A DNA stretch of 64,000 bases from Chlorophyllum brunneum (taxonomy: Eukaryota > Basidiomycota > Agaricomycetes > Agaricales > Agaricaceae), in the NCBI GenBank assembly GCA_963576785.1, contig OY756150.1:1426001-1490000 (forward strand), written 5' to 3'. The notes under the pieces were generated by a model, which saw only the letters and a program-made list of their open reading frames with translations, was not told the origin of the DNA and did not search any database. Position 1 is the first letter of the stretch. Each line of letters starts with the position of its first letter. Of this stretch, positions 874 through 62,461 are shown in pieces. A program made the position numbers and the translations under genes.

Positions 874-3800
874 TGTGAGTACGATCGAGTGTGATGGAGA
901 GACAAGAATCTGGGTGACGATGAATAGCTGAAAAGTGTGTACTGTTCTTATAGGACATTTCCCGGAGGGACGGCAAACGCGAAGAAAATGGGAGGATTGT
1001 AAAATGGGGAAAGTAGATTTCGGAAAAAGAGTCGTTGCTCGTAAGAATAAACAGGAGGGCTGTGTCACACTTCGAGGTCTTGCAAGCGCTTGATTATTTG
1101 ATGGACGTAAGGTTGATTGCTCTAGAGATCTATGTCGAAGATGAGATTGCGTGTCGATACTCCATTGACTTATGGACAACGACGCGTTAGGAGCTTGAAC
1201 GAATCCCGGAGAAAAATTGTAAACCTACTGTCATAGATACTCCACCATTCTCAGGTCCCCCGCACCAAAGCTCATCGTCATCGTGCGCAGCCCATACGGA
1301 GGGCGCTTTACTCGGCTATTCAATTATTTGCACCCACTGGGAATCTATGAGCCACGGAGCACTTGACACGCAGTCGACCCACCTCCGTCCTCCAACCCTG
1401 ACAAGTAACTTACCATGACAGTCTACTACTCACCCGCAGCATTTAGTATCAACAGCTATCAACAGTGAGAGGCGGAACAGAACATCTGTTGGCCAATCCC
1501 GGAGTGAGCCGGCATGCCATAATTTTGATCGCAACACTTCCACACCCTCGTGCAGCCTTCCAACGCCCAACTTCCCTCGCATGCACCACCCGGCAACGCT
1601 CATCCCGGTCAGGTCACTCAGTTCTTTCGCGTTGAGAGATAATTCTATTCGTAGGCCTTGTAGAACATCCTTCTGTAATCCAAAGAGCTTCTGATCTTCA
1701 GCGCAGTCGAGTGTCACTCGGAAACTAAAAGCCCGGATCAATTTTCCATCAAGCTGGCAAACGGAAGGCAGGCGGCACAATCACCTCCGTCGACTTCCGA
1801 TGTTCTGATCTCCCAGCCTGGCTGATAACCGCACCTAATTAGTCAGTTGGTGCTACACCTAATCAGCGCTACTACCAATGATCAAATTCCGGGAATGAAG
1901 ATCAGTAGATAGCCCCTCCGATAGCCCTCCGATGCGACGCATATTCAGCACTGTGAGTTCTCTCTACCATGCCCGCCCGACATCTGGTCATCATATCTGG
2001 ATAGATTCCGCTGTATCCGCCATAACCATCGCTGATGCCGCTAGATCTGGGCCCAAGGGAAAATTGCTACATACTTGTCCCTATGGCGGATGTCAGCTTT
2101 TTACAATCATAATGACACAAGCCGCTGACCTCGGAAATATTGGCTCTGTTTGAGCGAAAGTGTCTAATCCAGAGTTAAATTTAGGTCGTCTCGACTGATC
2201 CTTTCAGTAGCCTCACCTCACAGTTGAGCCGTCCTCCACCGCTGACGGAATATAGGATGTCGCCAATTAACGCTGACACATTGACAATGACTGTACATAC
2301 AATATTTACCCACAAAAATAGCATCATACACCAGGAACAGTCGCTGTCAGATATAGCACTGCGGTTCGACCTCGATAGCACCCCTATAGTTCATCCGCAA
2401 CGCATCTCAAAATTTTAAATCATATTGTACACGCAAATCCGCCTTGGTGGTGTAGAATAATAGCCCCAAGATCCCCCATCGAACGTTCTACTGCTTGTTG
2501 GTGATCGTTTGAACCATTTGGGTCATTCGATGTTACGAAACCCACGTCACCGAGGCCGTCGCCGGGGCGCACTCAAATATTCTCCGGATGTTGCTCATGT
2601 ACCTCGAGAGGCTTCGTGATTATCGACTGATGCAGACGCTAGTGCGTCCATTGGGACCTGCGGATAGGAACAGAGATTGATGCCGTACTTCTGATTTATA
2701 CAAATGGTATGGTTCCCCCAGTTCATCATAATTCATCATTTACCCGCTCCTCCCCTAAGTCATGTCGAGTCATGGTGTTCGATTGATACTTTGACGGGTC
2801 GGTGGAGTGAGAGAGCCACTACTTCCCAAAGTTTGAAAACAAGAGGGTAAACTATCAAGAAGCCTAAATGCAACTTTTCCCCAATAATCATAAAGCTCAT
2901 TTGAATAGCTTGAACAAGGGACTCAGTGAGAAAAACTCAATAAACCAAACACTCACTGGACCCTATATGCGCTTTATGACATAGTGTTTCAAGTTTTATC
3001 CCTAATTCGTCGGTAATGTCAAATGTGGCACTTAAGTGGCACTCCAAGGCTGGGCACGGTACCTGTGCTTGGTACACATGAACCTGAGGCGAGGTATAAG
3101 GGCTGTGCAAAGTTATATCAGTGCTATCCGTTCCGAGTTTAGGTGTGTTATGGATATGTCTGTGCTCCTCACTAACACGGTCTTCCAAGCAAGGCCATCA
3201 CAACAGAAAATGTATGTTCAATCAGCCTACGGAAAAAAAACCCCGGAGAGGGAGATATATATGAGACAGGCGCCGGTACCGACGCTTCCGAGTCTAAAAA
3301 TGGATTCCGTCGAAGATCATTCTTTGCCCGACACGGAGTGGACGAGGAAATATTTTCCTGCTTTTCGCTATTCGCTTGAATATTAGGAGGAGTGTCAGTT
3401 TTGCGTTGCGACGCGCTATCCTGGCTCGGAGTTAACTGATAATGACGTAAAAACGGAACGCGACCAGGGTTTGAAGTTGACAGTACAGTCGAAATTGTCA
3501 GGGCATGAAATTCAATGGAGACACACATTATGACATACTATGCGACCCTGAGTCCGGGATGCAAGGAGTTTTCCATGATATCCGTTCCGTCGTCTTTAGT
3601 CTCTTCGGAAGCGGATGCGATCAGGAATATTTGTGAGTCGCATCGGAATTAGTCACGTACCGACTTCATCGAGGGGCGGGGCACTTCCACTTGATCAACC
3701 AACAATGCTGCGAATTTGATTCCAATGAAGACTTTACCAGCGCTTTTGAAGTTTGCCTCTCACTATCGGAACTTCTGGCTTTCAGTTTTGCTGATTTGGA

Positions 3801-5252
3801 GTATGGAAGATGGATAGAATGAAATGGCCAGTATTTTGATGGTTAATCGGGCAAGGAATCCCGTCGAACTTGCCCAGATGGGTTCGTACGATAATATGTG
3901 TACTATTGACATACCCTTTAAGGAAAGGATGTAATTGCACGCAGTCGCTTACACTCTCGGACTCCGACTTCAATCACATTCTCTGCGTTCTCATCGGCCC
4001 CGCAGAAGTGAGGCTCAATCAAGCTGATCCATTTTTTCAGTTGTTCGAGGTGCTCACGCACCTAATTCTTAAATGGCAGTCAAAGCCCTCCGTGATGATC
4101 ATTCTGCTCTGGATGCGGTGGGTCATTAAGAACGAACATGCAATGGTTCTTGACTTCCTCCTGGTTAAGACAGTCATAGAATGATGATTAGGAGATGACT
4201 TCTGGTCGTATCTCCGGGGGGTAAGAAATTCCTGCCACAGCAAGGTCCGGATATTTCGATGAGGGAGGGGTGACCAGGATTTCGGAAGACGGCATCAAGA
4301 AGGGCAGGGTACATCTCGTAATGGCTGAGTTGGTGTAGGAACGCCCAAGTGACAATAACTCCCTGTGGTGCGAATATACAAAGTATGACGAAGTGTATGG
4401 GTCCCAGAGCATCAGGGTTGGTAATTTGTGGACTTTACAAGGACTCCCGAATATACACTCAGAGGTATGTTCCCAGTCCGCAGGTTTTGGTGCACTTTTT
4501 GCCGGGGGTTTGTCTAGGGTCCGCAGGTAATTGGCCTGTTTTCTGGTCGCCAGGTGTGTCTGGCAGTCCACAAGTACAGGGGCCAGCCAGTCTAGGATAT
4601 CCGTCATCCATAGGTCGTAGACGGTCCGCGAGCGCCTACAACTTTGAGCCTAATGGTGGCCAGGTGGCACCGATTAAACCTATACCGGCCGGAAAAATTC
4701 CCCAGTTTAAGCTCCGGAACCACGGGTTTTAGCCTACGCTAGGTATTTTACCGATCCGCAGATAATTGGTGGATTTTGGCCCATGGGTCGGGCTTCGGAT
4801 CCGGGAACATACCTCTGAGGGCATGTTCGGGGGTCCCTACTTCACATCATTAATCGGATCATCTTGGGGTGCAGCCATGGCCATGAGGGGAAATGGACAG
4901 GGTGTAGTGTGCGCTTGGTTCCTGACATCCGTTTGGCGTGGTCTTGGCTGGGGTCTCAAAAAAAAGAGGTTCTTTCGGATTGGGAATAACGCAGTTGCTG
5001 ATCTTTTCGGTCCTCGAGATGGTCATCACGATGGCAATATTAGGGTCAACATAACAATGACGCGCGATAACTTATGAGTTTTCCGAGGTCCACTGCTGTC
5101 GGAAAATCATAAATAGATTCATAGAAAGCCAATAGACAAGCCAAACATTCCAAAGCCCGATGTATGATGCCCTGTACATGAAATTCCCCTCAAACCCTCT
5201 GTAAATGAAACATGTCATTCTTCTTGATTCAGAGTCAGAAGTGCACAGAAAG
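874..5252. other. 4.4 kb with no supported gene
   Basis: No splice-consistent model or recognisable domain was found. The longest open frames are 1430-1780 on the minus strand (116 codons) and 4188-4607 on the minus strand (139 codons). Neither resembles a family I know, and neither can be extended across plausible introns. The part around 4440-4830 contains an inverted repeat and several reiterations of a TCCGCAG-(N)-AATTGG type motif, which suggests a decayed mobile element. Confidence 0.5.
4458..4819. repeat. Inverted repeat pair with exact 17-bp core
   Basis: The 17 bases at 4458-4474 are the exact reverse complement of those at 4803-4819. Outside the core there is weaker similarity on the inner side. 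The enclosed 330 bp contains repeated short motifs (TCCGCAG followed by TAATTGG near 4520 and near 4756). The layout resembles a MITE or a fragment of a larger element. No target-site duplication was established. Confidence 0.5.
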
Positions 5253-19594: not shown

Positions 19595-20768
19595 TTGCGA
19601 ACGCTCCCTATAGAACCTACGAACATAAGCTACCTCGAAAATGCGGCCGGCTTCATTATCGATCGCCCAATCATGGGGGGAACGCACATAAACCAGGTCC
19701 ACGGGATCGACGGTGAGTGGCCTCATCTCCCGCCAGAACCGTTTATTCACGACACAATGACACAGTGCTCCGAACAATGATTGAACATATCATACCCGGA
19801 GCCGAACATGACTCTTCCGCCCGGGATGATCCTCCTCGCTGTCATCCAGGCACCCGAACTCAAATTCTCGACGATATTCTCGACCAAATCCATGACCCTG
19901 ATCATAAGACGAAGATGGTGTGGATCAATGGTCCGGCGGGTGTTGGCAAGTCGGCAATCATGCAAACTGTGGCAGAATCGGAATCATCAGATGGTACAAC
20001 GCTCACTTCGATGTTTATTTCGCGACCAATCAAGCGCAACGACCCGAAGAAAGTCTTTCCCACTCTCGCATTCCATCTCGCACGTGTCAATATGGAATAT
20101 CGTCGTTATATTGAGAAGCACCTCATCAACGATCCCACCTTCCTAATGAAATCTATGGACGAACAATTTCGACTTCTCTTCGTTGCTCCCTTTGGTGACG
20201 AACTCACCCATTCGTCTGGTCCGTGGGTTGTGATTCTGGACGGCTTGGATGAATGCAGCGTAGAAGCAGACCAAGGGAGAATTGTCAATCTGATCCAAGC
20301 CTCCATTTCCAAGTGGATTATCCTTGATTCGGAAATCAGAGGAACGACGTACAGGTCTTGACCAAAATCCTTTTCATATACTCGACTTGTTGTATACGCA
20401 AATCATGGACGATATTTCAAAAGAAGACCTCCCTACTGCAAAGCTGCTCTTGGGTTTTCACCTTGTTGAGAATAGTCCGCAATTCATCAAAATTATTTCT
20501 CCGGTTTTCAAGTGTACGTGGCACCGTTACCCACAGACATGATGCGGTACTACCCACCCGCTGACCCCTGCCTTTGACAGTCAGCGTCAAAGACCTAAAG
20601 TCCCAGCCCATGCTCCTCGAGGCATGCGATACCCTGGGATTGGAACAGTCTGCAGTCTATGCTGCTTTGCGCAAGTTGTACTCCGTTGTCGCATGCCCTT
20701 CTGCCAAAGACGCGAACCGTCGATCTATTAGATCCCTATGTAGTTCCTGGTCATATATTGGCGTGTGA
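19595..20768 (+). pseudogene. Truncated NACHT/STAND NTPase (NLR-like) relic
   Basis: N-terminal segment of a fungal NACHT protein of the STAND class, a group linked to allorecognition and non-self responses. Visible are a GGTHINQV motif (about 19677-19700, typical of the leader before NACHT), an intron ending CACAG near 19762, then HPGTR, the Walker A loop GPAGVGKSA (about 19935) and Walker B WVVILDGLDEC (about 20224). Shortly after SISK the frame is disrupted and the central part of NACHT is missing. Downstream pieces in other frames are still recognisable as the post-NACHT helical region (ILDLLYTQIM at about 20378 and AVYAALRKLYSVV at about 20656). No sensor repeats (WD40, ankyrin, TPR) follow before the next gene at 20834. 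Best read as a deleted, frameshifted copy. Confidence 0.75.
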
Positions 20769-31492: not shown

Positions 31493-33908
31493 TCGTCTTG
31501 CTTTGCGAACTGTGCATACAATGTACTAGTGTTCACTGTAATCTCGAGATCGAATGCCATAACCTCCTATTCAACCAAGTCGACAATTTATTTATAAGAG
31601 CCTAAGAGCATGCCTCTGGACGTGCAAGATAAGGTCAAAGGTCCAGTAACCGCTGTCAGTTTGATGTCTCGCTTTGTTTTGCGAGTCCTCCGGTTGTGCG
31701 ACGGCAAGGATTTCATAGTGGACAAGTGCGACAACGTGATTCTGGTGAGATCCGGGCAGCGAAGCCTGTGCGTCGTGACACAACCAAGCAGGTTCCATCT
31801 GTGGCTTACGCCGTCACCCGGCATGCGCGGAACAATGGGGGCGACTCGTTCTTCTAGTCCATTACTGCAGAAATATAACCGGTCATGGTACTTTCACAGT
31901 AGGAATAGTCCACATGCACGTCTTCACATCCATTAGGGAGAGTGGCCTAGTAGCACGGTGGCGGTATATTGGCCGCTAAGGAACGATGCTTGTTGTAGAT
32001 AGTGCGCTACTTCGAGCAAGTGAGGAATAGGTCATCAGAGGTGATTTAGGTGGTCGCGTCGAAGCAGCACGGCACCTGGAGGCGGACGAAATAAGGGTGG
32101 ACGCGGCCATGTGGTATGGGTTCGTTCACAGATGCTGGATGAAGTGTCAGTTGGGAGGAGAAATAATAGGCTCAGGGCACGACTCGTTGGACACGGGTGT
32201 ACACCAGAATGGTCAACAGCTTGTGATCCTCAATCGGAGTCGGGGCCAAATGTTCGGCCTCTTGCGCAATATCCATCAAGAATTCTAGTGAAGTCTAGCT
32301 AAAGCCTCTACTCGTCAGCTAGGGGAGTAAGTGGGAAAATACATGACAGAGCGTACTTAACGAGACCCACAGATAAAGGCCGGCCGATCCAGGGAATATG
32401 TCCGTAAACAAGAGCGTCGAGAGAGAAGTGGCGGAGTGCTTCAAGTGCGTCCAGCAATGCACTGCTAACAGCCATCATCAAAGGTTAGTATGTTTGGAGT
32501 GGCGACCTGAAGATAACAACATTCCTAGGATTCGATAACATGATGTTTAAGGAAGCTCTTTGTAAGCCAGTCTCTTGCACTTATTCCCACAGTAAGTGTT
32601 CGAAATACAACATGACTGGTATGTACTTCCTCCGATACCAACCCTCAAACATATACGTCCTAAACTTATGTTGAGGATGTAGCTGTGATTTTGTCAAGTT
32701 CTGCGGGGAGAGTGCCCGCGTTCCCGAAACAGGCTTCCGTTACCTTAAATCTGGCAGATGGTGGTTGAGGTACAGCCGCGCTCTCTCGCACACGCATAGC
32801 CTCCTCGTCCTTCTAAATCAGACTATTGCGTCAAAAATATGGTCACCCCAAGCCATCATATATCATCAGGCCTGTCAGGAGTCACAAGCGGCCATCATTT
32901 TCGCGAAGCACGTTGTTCTGGATCGAACAAGAAATGCCATACGCTCTATATCAAGCCTCAGGACAATCCCATTGCCTTCCATCAATCCATCCATGATTAT
33001 CCTCCAAACAAGCTGGTAAGCATGTGGCACATTCCCTCCCGTCGAGAATTCCGTCCCCAATCCGAAATGGACCCCATTTCTCTGTAGCCAATTGGTGCTG
33101 GTGCATTGAGAGGTGCACTGCAAGTTTACTGCACAACAATCACAGGGACCATCCGCATCCAACCCCAGCCAAGCCTGGTCAATCTATCCACACTAGCAAA
33201 TACCGCTGAAATCATAACGACAATCATTACGCCAAGAGAGGCCGCATTTCCTCCCCGTTGCCAAACCAACTCAAAGCACGACGAATCCAATGACTAGGCT
33301 GCGGCCCTATGTATTGTATGCCGTGATATGGGAGAGCTTTGTTTGAGATGATCTTATCTCTGTTACCACTCTTCGAATGGTTGTCTTTTGATCCCTGTAC
33401 GCCCGGCTGACCCCGGAATACCTTTCCTTTCTACGATACTCCGAGAAGTTGCCTTCTTCCCAGCATCGCCACCGTCAAAGGAAGGATAACCGCCTCCAAG
33501 TAAAGGATATTCACATGTTCTCCGACGTTTTCTCAAGTCAAACAAGGTATCAAGTTCACAAGGTCGTCTCCATTGAATTCCAAGGTTACCTGACACCGAG
33601 AATAGAACGGGTTCATCTGTCAACGTCGCATCTGTCCATTTATGAGCTACGTTGGAGACGATGGTGTTCACGTATCGCAAGGCTCATAAAGTAGCCACTA
33701 ACTGGGGCCTAGTGAGCTTGGCGTTCCATAAGCCCTTGATCTATGGATATATAAAGGCCAGTTGTACTCTTCATAGCTTCGTTTCTAGTTCCCCAACACC
33801 CATTCCTTAAACAGAGTCGAAGGTGAATCGTTGGTCCATTGTTGCCGCTTTAATGCTCCAGTTACTAACGGTTTCTATTCTAGTCAACAGACAAACCAAA
33901 GGCAAATT
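31493..33908. other. 2.4 kb with no supported gene; promoter of HET-like gene at right end
   Basis: Many short frames on both strands but none with a known domain. The minus-strand frame at 32875-33162 looks mildly coding but has no splice partners. The right end carries a TATA element at 33748. Confidence 0.45.
33748..33755 (+). promoter_or_regulatory. TATA box of the HET-like gene
   Basis: TATATAAA on the plus strand, about 160 bp upstream of the first ATG (33909) of the HET-like protein. It is a strong match in an otherwise mixed sequence. Confidence 0.55.
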
Positions 33909-36185
33909 ATGCCTAGCCTAGCGAAATCTTGGCGCATATTCACAACCCATGTACAACCCGGACGTCTACTTCAGGAGGATGCGGGAGTCAAGGCAGGTCT
34001 CTGGTTCGGCCGTAAACCGGATAGCCCCCTTCACGGTCTCGCCAACTTCCTCCGCCTCTTCTTCGCTATAGTTCTGGCGCCAATATTTGTATTCATTCCC
34101 GCCAAGGGGGATTCCGTGAAGGAATTAGCAAAACGGATTTTATGGGGAATCGAATGGGCTAGAACTCCGGATGCTGTTTTACTGGAATCCCCAGGATCAT
34201 TGGCGTCCGAGAAGAATAAGCTCAAAGTCGGTTCTAGAGGCCAGTATGCGGTTACCAGCAACAAGCCAAAGTGGTTACTGGAGGTCGGATTCCGCGGAAC
34301 GGAGATCGTATCCCTGGAGCAAGTGAGGTACGAATGGGAGAGAAAGAGGCAGAAGGGAGGTCCGAAGAAGTCTCGGCATTCTCCCGATGTCAAGGAGAGC
34401 TTGCAGCGGCGAGTCGAAAGTTCAGGTTATACGGCAATCAGCTATGCGATGAAGAGCGCCGAGAAGCTCTTTTCCGAATTAGGGCGTCAGCATGACACCC
34501 AACCTCACGGAGAGCAGCGGAAGGATCGTCTTCGGAAGCGCAGAAATGTCGCACGGGCCCTATTGGACGAGTATGCTCGTGCTCGGGGGAAACTTGATGG
34601 GACAAAGGATGGGACAGAGTTTATTTGGTTGGATGAGTACTGTCTCTCTGACCCCAAGGACGAGGACAACGAGGAGGAGACAAAGAAGCAGAGGGACAAG
34701 GAACTTGGACAATTGACGGATATTTTCCGAGGAGCAAGACGTGTTGTCGTCTTCTGTCATGTTGAAGATTGCCACCATACGGATAACGATTGCCCTTGGG
34801 TCAATCGGCTGTTCACCTTGGGCGAAATCCTGCACGCTTCCAAAGTGTTGAGGATGACAAGGACGGAGGATGATATCACGAAGAGCCTTGTAAGCCGCAT
34901 TACCGTCATTGCTGGCCAGCAGTTCCGTTCCGACATGCAGGCATGTGCCGAGGAAGACAAGATGTGGCATCTGTACAACATCATGCAACACGCAACAAAC
35001 TCCGGTGCCGTTAGCTGGCAATCCGCTATCCATTCCCTTGTCGTTGAAGCCATCCGTAGGGACGAAGCAGACGGGTTCGACGCACATAAATACCTTGGGA
35101 AAGCCTTGAATGGTTTGTTACCTCGTAGGTCGCAGTTGGAGGACTTACAAGGCGTTAACGGGTGGGCGGACCTTGCGTGGCTGTTGGAGTTAAACCAAGG
35201 GTATTATAATGCCGCCCTCCTCGCCGCCGTATGCAAACTTGCCGACAGCGATGTGAAAGACTATAACTGGTGGGGGAAACCAATTGCGCCGAGAGAAGGA
35301 TCAGAACGACTTGAACCTCTGGTCACTGCCATTCCTACCAAATACGGTACATTTGGCAATGGTCCCACCGAACCCATTCTCTCCATTATTGGACCCAAAT
35401 CCGTCGCTCTCACTCACTGGTTGGAACGTGATTCTGGAGCTTTTTCTCATAGGCGAGAGATGAAAAGCTTGAGATGGTGCACGTTCTGGATCTCTTTTAT
35501 TTTCGTCGTCCTCGGGATCATAGTCGGGGTCACCGCCGCCAGTGTCGGAGGCGCAATTGCTCTCATCTGGATCGGATTCATTATTTACGCTATGATGACT
35601 CTCTTAGCGGGAACGATGTTCGTGAAGAAGACTGCCTGGATTGTATTCGAGGACCATAGTATTGGAGGTCGTGATCCTATGCAATGGCTGCGATCCCAAG
35701 ATCCCTCTTTCGTCAATGCCTCCGAATGGGGCCCACGTCAATTAATCCCACAATGGGATACACCCCATCCTACTCCGAGCCCGCGCGGCAGTCCACCTCG
35801 CCCCTATGCGGCCACCCTCGTCGATCTCCGAACTGGCGTACTCACCAAGGCCGCTATCACGAGCAAACCAAACGGCATGGTTGTCCTTGCCGTGCATGGA
35901 AGCGGTATCACATGCATGTTATTGGATAGGGATGTAATGGCGGGATTCGTTGATAACCCCACTACTGCGGTTAAAGTGGGAATGGTGAACTTACCGCCGT
36001 TCGTACTTGCACAATCGGAAGAATCTGGTACTGTTTATGTCGGGACAGGGGTTAAGAGGGAGCCTGTGAGTTCGACTAAAGCCGTGTATCATCGGACGGA
36101 GGAATCCAGCCGGGACGATGTGGAGAAGTTTGGTGAGAGCCCAAATTCACCGTCTCTGCCAGGCAAGCACCACCACCACTCCTGA
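33909..36185 (+). CDS. HET-like domain protein with C-terminal membrane hairpin
   Basis: Single-exon gene of 758 residues starting MPSLAKSWRIF. The central region carries hallmarks of a HET (heterokaryon incompatibility) fold in order: YTAISYAMKSAEKLF (about residue 175), FIWLDEYCL (about 240), and a stretch from ELGQLTDIFRGARRVVVF to CPWVNRLFTLGEIL, matching the usual SYxWG, iWiDxxCInQ and W-x-RxWTxqE blocks in degenerate form. Near residues 515-590 two long hydrophobic helices (WISFIFVVLGIIVGVTAAS, then IALIWIGFIIYAMMTLLAG) form a membrane hairpin, and a short one lies at about 45-70. The tail ends in a His run. HET domains trigger non-self cell death in ascomycetes; in basidiomycetes the role is mostly untested. 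The glycine and tryptophan of the SYxWG block are absent here, so I call it HET-like. Confidence 0.72.
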   Translation: MPSLAKSWRIFTTHVQPGRLLQEDAGVKAGLWFGRKPDSPLHGLANFLRLFFAIVLAPIFVFIPAKGDSVKELAKRILWGIEWARTPDAVLLESPGSLASEKNKLKVGSRGQYAVTSNKPKWLLEVGFRGTEIVSLEQVRYEWERKRQKGGPKKSRHSPDVKESLQRRVESSGYTAISYAMKSAEKLFSELGRQHDTQPHGEQRKDRLRKRRNVARALLDEYARARGKLDGTKDGTEFIWLDEYCLSDPKDEDNEEETKKQRDKELGQLTDIFRGARRVVVFCHVEDCHHTDNDCPWVNRLFTLGEILHASKVLRMTRTEDDITKSLVSRITVIAGQQFRSDMQACAEEDKMWHLYNIMQHATNSGAVSWQSAIHSLVVEAIRRDEADGFDAHKYLGKALNGLLPRRSQLEDLQGVNGWADLAWLLELNQGYYNAALLAAVCKLADSDVKDYNWWGKPIAPREGSERLEPLVTAIPTKYGTFGNGPTEPILSIIGPKSVALTHWLERDSGAFSHRREMKSLRWCTFWISFIFVVLGIIVGVTAASVGGAIALIWIGFIIYAMMTLLAGTMFVKKTAWIVFEDHSIGGRDPMQWLRSQDPSFVNASEWGPRQLIPQWDTPHPTPSPRGSPPRPYAATLVDLRTGVLTKAAITSKPNGMVVLAVHGSGITCMLLDRDVMAGFVDNPTTAVKVGMVNLPPFVLAQSEESGTVYVGTGVKREPVSSTKAVYHRTEESSRDDVEKFGESPNSPSLPGKHHHHS

Positions 36186-39697: not shown

Positions 39698-42037
39698 CTA
39701 AATCTCAACAGCACCCCCAATCTCAAACTGCACCACACTCTTAACAACCGTATCCCAAACCTCCACATCCGGTTTAAACACACTCGAATACGCTGAAGGC
39801 TGCCCGGCCCGATTCCGGCTTGTAGGACCATAATACGGACATTCCTGTCCTATACTTCCTAGATTCACAGGGGCAGTCGTTACGAACAACTTGAAAAACC
39901 CAACATCCTTCGATTCACCATCGCGGAGCATGAATTCCCAAGGGTCAACTCCGCCTTCACCGTATCCTATAGTAAATTCGGATTTTGGAGGGAGAATGAC
40001 GTCGATTTTGTGTGTGTTGATTGAAGTCCCCGCGCCTGTGGGTGGAAGGTACCACGGAGCTTGTGGAAATGAATGAGATAAGGACTAGATGCAGAGAGGA
40101 GACGATGTGACGTACTGATTGATAATTCGGAAGGGTCAAAGTAAAATAGATGAGGGTATAATGGAAGATCCGTGAAATTGTCCACTGTGACGCTGTACCT
40201 CTTTTCTTTCTCAACGACAACCACAGCGGGGTCTCTCTCAAACATATTTGAACCAACAGGTTTACCGACAAGATCGTACTCGGCATTATACTTCATTTCT
40301 AATTCTCTCATCTCCATCTTGACATTGATATTGCCGTCAGTGGAGGTGATATTGGGGTTGGTACGGAAGAGGTGGAATCGGAAGTTGATGGCACATCCAA
40401 TGACTTGGTGTAATAGCCATGTGTTGTTTGATGGGATTGTGAACGGGGATCGTGTACCAATATGTTTGGCGGCGAGTGGAAGATTATGGTCGATGTAGAC
40501 GGTATCACCCTCCAGCGTAAGCACAAGATCCGCGGCCTTTGGATCTGGGATAATGGTTATCGAATGTGCAACGCGGAATTCTTCACCATACAACGACTCA
40601 AGCCACGTCAAGTTGTTCGAGGACAAAATGAGAGACTCCGAGGGGCGTTGAATGATCCTACAATAAAACATACGACGGAGCGAGAGTACTTGCGTCGCGG
40701 TATGAGGGAGTAAGAGAGTTGAAGAGGTACTATCAACTGCAGTAACGACGAGAGTACCAAGTGAGAGATTTGGTTGTTGTCGAATAGGGAGGAGATTGGA
40801 TTCATGCACGGAGACTGTACACCCTACAGTGATACCCTGCATGATCCCAGCGTCCATAGTCAAATGGTCACCCTTTTTGAAACCGAGAATGAAACTCGGA
40901 TCACCACCTTCAATTCGGTGATTAAACAATCGCCTATTAACTTCCACTCCTTCACAATGAGCATTCTGCCTTTATAAAACGTCAGTAAAAAAAACATATG
41001 GCATGTGCGTTGGAAGTTACTGCATACCACTTTGGCATACTCAATCGATGCATGAGACTGGTATAAGTCAAACTCTCCACCCTCGCTTCATTCAACACTT
41101 TCAACAACGCATACGTAAACACGCCATTCGGTTGTTTCGGATGTTCATGAGCGAATTGTTCTCTTCCACAAGCTGCAAGTAACACATGAGAAGATAAATT
41201 CTTCCCAGAAAACCCTTTAACTATCCCAACACCACGAGAAAGACTACCGATGATCTTGTCATCGTAATCATATGGAAGACGTGGTGGAGTGAATATATGT
41301 CGAGGTTGATATCCTTCAAGTTCTGGCTGGTTGGCTTCCTTCGAGTTTCGTGTTGCTCCAGCAGAATGGCAACAATCCAAGATTAGCGTCTATATCATCA
41401 TCGTCAATGGTATTTACTGTTTTAAAAAAGGAAAGACTTACGATATTGTTTCCTCTCGTCTCCGACAATCGATTAACCAACGCCGCAATAGTCCTATCCG
41501 GAATCGCCGGAACTTCACATTCCTCTTTCCCAACCTTCACACCAACCTTCCTTCCATCCTCATCCATCACACAAACTTCCCTTTCTCGAACTTCCACAAC
41601 ACCGATATCAGCAGGACACAAAGCCTCATAATACTCCCCCTCCCCCTCTTCCCATTCCTTCGGTTTCTCTCCCCTCGTACCATGTCCAGCAAAAAACACA
41701 ATAATACCAATACCTTCTTCCTCAGATTTTTCAAGTCGAGGAGGAGAAGTGAGGTTTTTGAGAGCTTCGAAAGAGGTGAGGATGGATGAACGGGTTGCGG
41801 ATTTGTTTCGGAGGTTGATGAGATGGGATTTGGGGATGTGGAGATGGGAGGTGAGGTATTGTTCGAAATCGTCAGCGTCTTTTGTAGCGGAGGTGAGGTT
41901 TGGGTAGGAGGGGGAGGTGTAGGTGTTGATACCGATGATGAGAGCGTATAGAGGTGGAGGTTTGAAGTAACTGGTGTATGAATGGGACGTTAGTTGAGTT
42001 TTTTTTTTTGGTTAATATGTACATACGTCTCGTCCAT
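39698..42037 (-). CDS. Caspase-like C14 peptidase with C-terminal extension
   Basis: Caspase-fold cysteine peptidase (family C14), of the kind abundant in Agaricomycetes and related to metacaspases. A tiny first exon (MDET, start 42037) is spliced to YFKPPPLYALIIGINTY, the first core strand. The catalytic His lies in FFAGHGTRG (about 41685) and the catalytic Cys in LDCCHSAG (about 41370); this exon pair is joined across an intron near 41400-41440. After the peptidase domain comes a long extension of roughly 400 residues: a beta-rich region (GDHLTMDAGIMQGITVG onwards) and a terminal domain with DVGFFKLFVTTAPVN and a final EVWDTVVKSVVQFEIGG. Both dyad residues are present, so it is likely active. 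In fungi these enzymes are associated with stress-induced or regulated cell death. Exon edges inside the C-terminal half are approximate. Confidence 0.85.
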
Positions 42038-46363: not shown

Positions 46364-46889
46364 ATGTCAACTCCCCAAGAAATCACTCTTACCAATATCC
46401 TATACAACATCCAACGCATACGGGACAAACTCGCCGTCACAGCCGGAGCTCTCACCAAAATTGTACTGTGTTTCCTACCATCCCACATCAAATATAATTT
46501 ATTTGTAATAGGTATTCAGTGAAGAAGATACACTCTCAGATATGAATCTCGAAAACGCACGGGCATCAATTGGATTAGAATTCCAATCTCTAGTTCAAAA
46601 TATCCGAGCTATGAAACCTACGTATCCGATCATCAAAACTCATCCGGATATACGATATAATATCGATCAACTTATTGCGCGTCGGAATTGGCTTAGTCAT
46701 GAGTATGGGACGACTGCGCCGGTTAGGTGGAGTGAGATTGCGGATAGTGTTTTTGGTGATGTTCCTAGGATTGAGAAGGCGGTTATTAGTGCGCTTGGGG
46801 AGTTGGGGGTACCGGTACCTTTTATGGATTTGGAACAAGGTGGAGAGGATGTTGGCGGTTGTGTAGAGGTTGTGACGGAGGTGGTTTAG
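46364..46889 (+). CDS. HepT-like HEPN protein, RX4HXY (candidate RNase of a HEPN/MNT pair)
   Basis: Two exons join in phase (46364-46462, 46512-46889) for 158 residues. The protein is all-helical and follows the layout of prokaryotic HepT (DUF86): a first helix (TNILYNIQRIRDKL), an extended linker with SDMNLENARASIG matching the conserved second-helix block, and a third block IDQLIARRNWLSHEYG containing the catalytic signature R91-x4-H96-x-Y98. It then continues with VRWSEIADSVFGDVPRIEKAV, like the end of HepT. In the bacterial family this motif forms the RNase site of a dimer, and the tyrosine is the residue AMPylated by the partner MntA. The length is slightly above the usual 110-145 because of the N-terminal exon and an acidic, valine-rich tail. 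The predicted partner lies immediately downstream on the opposite strand, 84 bp away. RNase activity is inferred, not shown. Confidence 0.82.
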
Positions 46890-46973
46890 GTTGTACCAGT
46901 CCTGTGAGGATTTGTTAGTCGAGTACTATTGATCGTTAGATAGGGGAGAACTCACGTCAAGTGGTTGTAATGA

Positions 46974-47913
46974 TCATCGTATGATGTCTTTGTACATAAC
47001 TTCATCAACTTGATTTCCTTCTTCAAATGCGTCTGCTAGTCTTTTTGATGCGAGCATATGACGAAGGTAGGCTAGTCCGCCCACAGCGCAGCCAGTATCG
47101 AAAGACCACATAGCGGTTTTGGTGGGTTGAAGGAAATCCCAGATTGTTTTCCAAATTGGTGCGGTTCCTGGTGTGATGGATAGTTCTTCTTTTTTGAGGA
47201 TTAGGCGGATTTTGGTGGCGTAGTCGAAAGCCCATCGGACTAGCATGGTTCGGATGGGATGATGTCGGGGTTTGATATCCAACAAGTTGACTATTTTCTC
47301 GAGCTCTGAAATACACACTTGCCGCGCGGGTTCTTGAGAAGGTTGAATGAAATTCTGACTGGGGGGTCAATTTTGGGTTGGAGTGTTGGTGGAGCTTTAC
47401 TTACGTCGTAGGTTTTGATAGTGGACACTTGGATTTTGATTCTGTTAACGGATTTAGCGATATGTTCGAGTCTTTGTTGACCGTCGTGGATATAGGTCAT
47501 GGCTTCTTGACGAAGATGTTCAATGTCTTTCCTATCTCCATACACTGTGCGACTTGAAAGTAAAGCCTCCACTCGGACATGACCCCAAGCCCAATCAGGT
47601 CCTTGCCATATACACATAAAAGATATCTCGCGACCACAAGCTTCTTGCAAGTCTAACAGAAAAGAAAATATCAGAGAAGAAATAAAGAAAGCGAGAGAAG
47701 AAAAGATAAATTACCTTCACGAAGATCGACAGGTTCTCCAGATTGCTGGTGTTGTTTGAATACGACGAGAATGTCGACGTCGGATTGGGGATGAGCACGG
47801 TTACGGGCGATGGAGCCGAAGATTCCCGCCCAGAGTATGTCTGTTTTGTATGCGGGTCCGAGCCAGATGGGAGCGAGGCGCTGTTTCATTTGGTCAAAGG
47901 TGGGAGTGGTCAT
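46974..47913 (-). CDS. MntA-like minimal nucleotidyltransferase with helical C-terminal extension
   Basis: Three exons join in phase (47715-47913, 47405-47652, 46974-47303) for 258 residues. Residues about 20-66 are a DNA polymerase beta-type minimal nucleotidyltransferase (MNT): the strand DILWAGIF, then G33-S34-x10-D45-x-D47, which exactly fits the GSX10DXD signature of MntA, then ILVVF. After exon 1, VRVEALLSSRTVYGD resembles the usual end of the MNT fold. Beyond about residue 115 there is an extra helical region of 140 residues (QEAMTYIHDGQQRLEHIAKS, then PIRTMLVRWAFDYATKIRL) without a clear family. Bacterial MntA proteins are usually about 100-140 residues, so this one is larger. MntA neutralises HepT by transferring AMP to it. 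Here the HepT-like gene is the convergent neighbour. Intron 2 uses the second of two adjacent AG acceptors (TTTCAGAG). Confidence 0.82.
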
Positions 47914-48583
47914 TGTGCTCCAAGCGGTCTTCCATGCATGAACCTGAGGGGATTTGATTGAATCACGTGGAAATGGAGGGTACGATCACGTGATACCCAA
48001 GCCTGTTGGGACTGGATGTTTCACTTGCAGTTACATCCCGCCGCTGATCCAAGTCCACTCCTGCGACGGTGCGCACTCATCTATTGATGAAGAGACGTGC
48101 ATCAACAGGACAAACTGTGCTACCCGATGCCAAAACTCTATATATCCCGGTCTATGAGAACTACAGTATGACGGATACGGTCCGCCAGGTTCCTGCTCAA
48201 CCTGAGCATATGTTGGACCCGCCTATCCGGATGATTTCATCTCAACTTCTTAAGCCGACCTTGTGAGAACGCGGTTGTAATCGCCTTCTTGAAGCTTCTA
48301 CGTACATTTGGAAAGCCAATACAGATTAGATAGAGCACCCAGAGGACCGTACGTCTCGAGTGTCAACTTTTTGAATGCACCCCGCGCTTTGTCCTGTCTG
48401 GCCCGGAGCCAATCGCGTGGTGTCCCCGGAAACCCTGCTTTCTGGCTTCAGGAGGCGAATGACGCCACAATCAACAGCACAGGCGCAAGTATCCAGATCT
48501 TCTGCACCCTATAGCAAATCATATCTGGAAACACACCGGAAATAAATTCATGCGACTCACTCCTTCTCTTCCTCCACAGGACC
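47914..48583. other. 0.67 kb spacer
   Basis: Upstream of the MNT gene and just before the decayed aminotransferase copy. No gene visible; it should carry the MNT promoter on the minus strand. Confidence 0.5.
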
Positions 48584-49905
<1,322 letters not shown>

Positions 49906-62389: not shown

Positions 62390-62461
62390 TCTCTGTTAGT
62401 ATATCGGTTAGTACACGCGCCTGTCACGCGCGAAAGCGGGGTTCGACTCCCCGACAGAGAG
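62390..62461 (+). tRNA. tRNA-Asp (GUC)
   Basis: A 72-nt cloverleaf without intron or encoded CCA. The acceptor stem TCTCTGT pairs with ACAGAGA, position 8 is T, the D-arm contains TCGGTTAGTA, the anticodon arm is CGCGC-CTGTCAC-GCGCG with anticodon GTC, and the T-arm is GCGGG-GTTCGACTC-CCCG with the B box GTTCGA. The layout matches the common eukaryotic tRNA-Asp. A run of five T follows at 62462-62466 and serves as the RNA polymerase III terminator. Confidence 0.97.

Follow-up and report, generated by a model that had tools for sequence, protein, structure and literature searches.

A spliced HEPN/MNT gene pair resembling HepT/MntA in the nuclear genome of the mushroom Chlorophyllum brunneum

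Here we describe two neighbouring genes of the mushroom Chlorophyllum brunneum, encoding a HEPN protein and an MNT nucleotidyltransferase, which on balance we take to be a domesticated HepT/MntA-like pair, in which a HEPN RNase would be held in check by docking of MNT and by likely AMPylation of its tyrosine 98. The genes lie in a 64,000 nucleotide stretch (hereafter the window; contig OY756150.1, positions 1,426,001 to 1,490,000, forward strand), which forms part of a 2.1 Mb contig (C12) in a genome of 38.9 Mb assembled in 14 contigs. The HEPN gene (+ strand) codes for 158 amino acids and the MNT gene (- strand) for 275. The two are convergent with 84 bp between their stops, so that their 3' untranslated ends would overlap. 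The HEPN protein carries the RX4HXY motif as RNWLSHEY (residues 91-98; 46683..46706, +), and the MNT protein carries the GSX10DXD motif as GSIARNRAHPQSDVD (residues 33-47; 47773..47817, -). Both the location of the genes and the exactness of the two motifs, as given in an original prediction made from the DNA letters, were confirmed. When each protein was shuffled 100,000 times, RX4HXY arose in 0.275% of the shuffles of HEPN and GSX10DXD in 0.267% of those of MNT.

Exon 1 of the HEPN gene (46364..46462, +; residues 1-33), which aligns with relatives, and exon 2 of the gene model (46512..46889, +; residues 34-158, including the stop) are separated by a predicted GT-AG intron of 49 nt (46463..46511, +), and a reading that retains this intron runs into several stops. 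The model of the MNT gene comprises three exons on the minus strand (47715..47913, 47405..47652 and 46974..47354, the last including the stop), with predicted GT-AG introns of 62 nt (47653..47714, -) and 50 nt (47355..47404, -) between them. None of the three intron lengths is a multiple of 3, and the reading frame therefore requires splicing. The splice points are further backed by relatives, as predicted by others, whose proteins read through an insert at the matching points: P0033, P0039, P0040 and P0053 for the HEPN intron, P0027 for the first MNT intron, and P0006 and P0022 for the second. That both genes possess spliceosomal introns, as originally claimed, thus appears well founded from predicted introns and read-through inserts. 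Since both families are prokaryotic in type, we considered bacterial contamination or an assembly artefact, but rejected contamination because the intron positions are common to other fungi. The neighbouring genes are eukaryotic in type and the contig and assembly are as large and contiguous as stated above, so that we give this explanation practically no weight; the earlier statement that the pair is not bacterial contamination was borne out.

The HEPN protein of the window matched no Pfam family. A single-sequence search with it returned 3 proteins, and a profile search, in which the best 7993 candidates were scored, returned 27 relatives at E ≤1. PF01934 (HepT-like) was matched by 13 of the 28 members of the family thus assembled (best E 0.0011), and any other Pfam family by 1 of 28 at most. 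In profile alignment, RX4HXY stood in register, with little similarity outside it. The exact motif was present in the window protein and in 14 of its 27 relatives. Residue counts were made on 24 aligned rows, leaving out 4 of the 28 that had gaps at the positions in question, and gave R90 in 24/24, R91 in 21/24, H96 in 15/24 and Y98 in 23/24. The tyrosine, which is the AMP acceptor in bacteria, and the first Arg are thus better kept in fungi than the catalytic His, and the uniformly active RNase implied by the original prediction was not supported, as this His is absent in 9 of the 24. Three relatives (P0035, P0041 and P0044), whose sequence diverges abruptly past the motif region, may be faulty gene models or relicts. 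The UniRef name for P0003 starts 'DUF86 domai'; single proteins have therefore already been named in databases.

The predicted fold of the HEPN protein is a HEPN fold. Structural realignment of the predicted folds placed bacterial HepT on top for HEPN and bacterial MntA on top for MNT, and these top chains belong to shared solved complexes. At the level of models, the proposed fold check was thus in favour of HepT and MntA for the two proteins. The Foldseek E-values were weak, and its rank 1 for MNT was a kanamycin/aminoglycoside nucleotidyltransferase with a poor whole fit (TM 0.30, root mean square deviation 15.8); 6nmk, on realignment with MNT, gave a deviation of 12.8 over 206, and MntA chains scored higher. 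The fungal pair resembles the HepT/MntA type VII toxin-antitoxin system (Shewanella oneidensis SO_3166/SO_3165; PDB 7bxo, 6m6u) in having an RX4HXY HEPN beside a GSX10DXD nucleotidyltransferase, but differs from it in being nuclear, intron-bearing and convergent, and is known here from sequence and models. It shares with Sacsin, Swt1, Las1 and the KEN/RNase L type the occurrence of the HEPN superfamily in a eukaryote, although those proteins, in the part of PMC3710099 consulted, belong to other HEPN families or are parts of larger proteins. The row for HEPN-M/DUF86 in a table of the same source names Bacteria and Archaea only, and a table of fungal domains in PMC4102429 includes the HEPN domain. 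Among the papers listed by literature searches, no title or abstract opening described a HepT/MntA-like pair in a nuclear genome.

HEPN relatives came from eight named species (Pholiota, Neolentinus, Crassisporium, Bondarzewia, Amanita, Stereum, Sparassis and Grifola), all of them Agaricomycetes, from the orders Agaricales, Gloeophyllales, Russulales and Polyporales. The MNT search yielded 26 relatives with 12 named species, six of which were confirmed as Agaricomycetes; Leucocoprinus, Lyophyllum, Leucoagaricus, Agaricus, Gymnopilus and Flammula we take to be mushrooms, and the named relatives of both families are then all mushrooms. Both proteins were found in five named species, and in four of these they lie on contigs of exactly equal size (Pholiota, 132,953; Neolentinus, 457,699; Crassisporium, 359,309; Grifola, 1,138,767), each of which we infer to be one contig carrying both genes. 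For an assumed genome of 30 Mb such contigs amount to 0.4 to 3.8% of the genome, so that four coincidences are unlikely. The original prediction had named absence of linkage in related fungi as its refutation; the probably shared contigs in four of the five species point instead to linkage at the level of contigs. MNT without HEPN was seen in seven named species and HEPN without MNT in three (Bondarzewia, Stereum and Sparassis). These absences are weak evidence since small spliced genes are easily missed; within the limits of the search, the greater frequency of MNT-only species fits the logic of an antitoxin. HEPN and MNT alike keep an intact motif in the window, in Neolentinus and in Crassisporium, and both motifs are altered in Pholiota, where the His of HEPN is changed to Arg and the MNT motif is 4 residues shorter, a pattern consistent with a coupled pair.

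The MNT protein scored above the Pfam cut-offs for PF18765 (1.3e-10) and PF01909 (1.1e-8; 35.8 bits against a cut-off of 21), and the exact GSX10DXD motif was found in 17 of its 26 relatives as well. According to PMC7641770, two Mg ions in S. oneidensis MntA are bound by D39, D41 and D71. By alignment, the position of D71 falls in the window MNT on Ser77 (47621..47623, -). For a bacterial comparison we took 66 HepT loci, of which 63 were examined after 3 fragments had been dropped; 51 of them had an MNT no more than 420 nt upstream of the HepT motif, and by this rule none was found in 12. The residue at the D71 position in these 51 MNTs was Asp in 46, Glu in 2, Ser in 2 and Asn in 1, and both MNTs with Ser adjoin intact HepT motifs. 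The nucleotidyltransferase core of the fungal MNT is followed by about 170 further residues, beginning with a predicted helix of 39 residues (107-145 in the model of P0012), and predicted helices run to the C-terminus. The protein, earlier called a minimal nucleotidyltransferase, is thus not minimal, and its 275 amino acids, extra helices and Ser set it apart from bacterial MNTs. In the latter, a long C-terminal helix can insert in the cleft of the HEPN dimer and aid AMPylation, and one bacterial MNT without such a helix still AMPylates, according to PMC11586414.

For the domesticated HepT/MntA-like pair, we propose that HEPN, predicted to cut RNA, would be kept silent by MNT, which would dock on it and likely add AMP to tyrosine 98. 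The long helix that follows the core of MNT (residues 107-145 in the P0012 model) may fill the role that the long C-terminal helix has in bacterial MNT. The change of Asp to Ser may slow the transfer of AMP or turn the transfer into a switch, and because of this change docking probably has a larger share of control than in bacteria. Upon release from MNT, HEPN would degrade RNA and growth would stop, at a guess in a response to stress, to viruses or to non-self. We infer that the pair shares its ancestry with the HEPN/MNT pairs of prokaryotes, probably following transfer from bacteria; fungi likely took over a bacterial-type toxin switch.

Several findings weigh against this interpretation. 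The HEPN family does not reach the cut-offs of PF01934 and PF08780; six members matching PF01934, when scored singly, gave 12.3 to 19.2 bits, and even the best thus stayed below 23.5. The operon order differs, since bacterial MNT is directly upstream of HepT and the fungal genes are convergent. Among the aligned fungal MNTs that carry the motif pattern, of which the window protein is one, the D71 position is Ser in 19/19. Outside these 19 rows, Ser occurs in P0013, P0016 and P0019 also, P0028 is garbled there, and the rows of P0022, P0025, P0026 and P0029 do not show this stretch. The earlier claim that all active-site residues are retained therefore fails for MNT, whose active site, judged from the alignment, is altered as a lineage trait. 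In Amanita, no contig sizes match between HEPNs and MNTs, and the His is lost in 3/3 HEPNs, yet the motif is intact in 2/3 MNTs, which fits coupling less well. The tags in Grifola are 11286 and 11302, so that the two genes may not adjoin directly there. Because HEPN stays under the Pfam cut-off, and gene order and one catalytic ligand differ from those of the bacterial system, we consider the pair a variant in the HepT/MntA design and not a proven type VII member.

The fixed Ser gives its force to the rival that we judge unlikely but the most serious, namely that MNT is a pseudoenzyme, in which GSX10DXD may bind ATP and Mg while no AMP is transferred for want of the third Asp. HEPN would then be silenced by binding only, through the long helix and the helical part, with Tyr98 kept as a docking face; the long helix and the further helices of the model are in line with this. 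However, the D39E/D41E MntA of S. oneidensis, according to PMC7641770, retains binding to HepT but neutralises it less, which argues against docking alone; the GSX10DXD motif remains exact in most fungal relatives, and Ser also occurs in 2 of the 51 bacterial MNTs, both adjoining an intact HepT motif. A less likely alternative is that the toxin role was lost, MNT being an enzyme or regulator like kanamycin nucleotidyltransferase and HEPN a non-toxic partner that binds RNA or a substrate. The fungal MNT has a predicted helical part after its Pol-beta nucleotidyltransferase domain, perhaps in the arrangement of ANT(4') (PDB 6un8, 1kny) but, unlike kanamycin/aminoglycoside nucleotidyltransferases, it has a HEPN gene adjoining. 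Against this alternative stand the poor overall match to ANT, the higher scores of MntA chains on realignment, the C-terminal part of MNT, for which profile comparison gave no similarity to HEPN, and the exact RX4HXY of the window and about half of its relatives. The weak Foldseek E-values, PF01934 scores under the cut-off and slight HEPN similarity outside the motif would also suit genes that adjoin by chance, one for an orphan nucleotidyltransferase and the other for a four-helix protein with no more than a resemblance to HEPN. With the motif in register in the profile alignment, PF01934 recurring as the family matched by 13 members where others reach 1 at most, and equal contig sizes in 4 of 5 species, we regard such chance as improbable.

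A fuller version of the HepT/MntA-like interpretation, which we offer tentatively and hold rather less probable than its general form, is that a spliced nuclear pair was rebuilt in mushrooms by a convergent split, a helical antitoxin extension and a resetting of the AMP centre, in which Asp became a fixed Ser. No nuclear HepT/MntA module would then have been described before this one, which would act as a nucleotide-gated clamp on an enzyme that cuts RNA in cell death or defence. If true, a spliced pair across several mushroom orders would mean that such systems can enter the eukaryotic nucleus and persist there. The fixed Asp-to-Ser change offers a natural test of whether HEPN is silenced by AMPylation or by physical docking, and the pair is a candidate RNA-level switch of cell death or defence in fungi.

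The HEPN gene is preceded by an aminotransferase gene (PF00155; 45068-46141, +), a degraded copy of which lies in pieces, 75-81% identical, on the other side of the pair (48604-49829, +), and a relict of a CDC20-type WD40 gene (48046-48559, +) stands between MNT and this copy. The MNT-CDC20 block recurs at about 1.77 Mb of the same contig C12 (locus L007), where the CDC20-type frame (3401-4591) is long and matches PF24807 with 216.6 bits (cut-off 200), and where MNT survives as a relict with 48% identity over residues 2-59. The HEPN/MNT pair is thus located in a segmentally duplicated stretch, as if the block had been duplicated and each copy had then decayed differently. Three other open reading frames of the window were considered as a cell-death gene island. 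A caspase-domain (Peptidase_C14) frame (41319-42011, -) about 4.4 kb from the HEPN gene, a neighbour noticed after the fact, is one of at least 2 matches in a whole-genome scan (E 0.001). An open frame of 798 amino acids resembling HET (heterokaryon incompatibility; 33789-36182, +) scored 20.9 bits against a cut-off of 22.5; the genome scan gave a single HET match, a lower bound, elsewhere, and left this frame itself unmatched. A NACHT-type (NPHP3_N) frame (19717-20358, +) belongs to a family that is very large in this genome, as 150 of 150 scored sequences matched (the best 150 of 225 candidates). Such an island was rejected as proof of function, since NACHT matches occur everywhere in this genome and the HET-like frame went unmatched in the genome scan. 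A tRNA gene at 62390-62461 (+) was the only Rfam match within the window.
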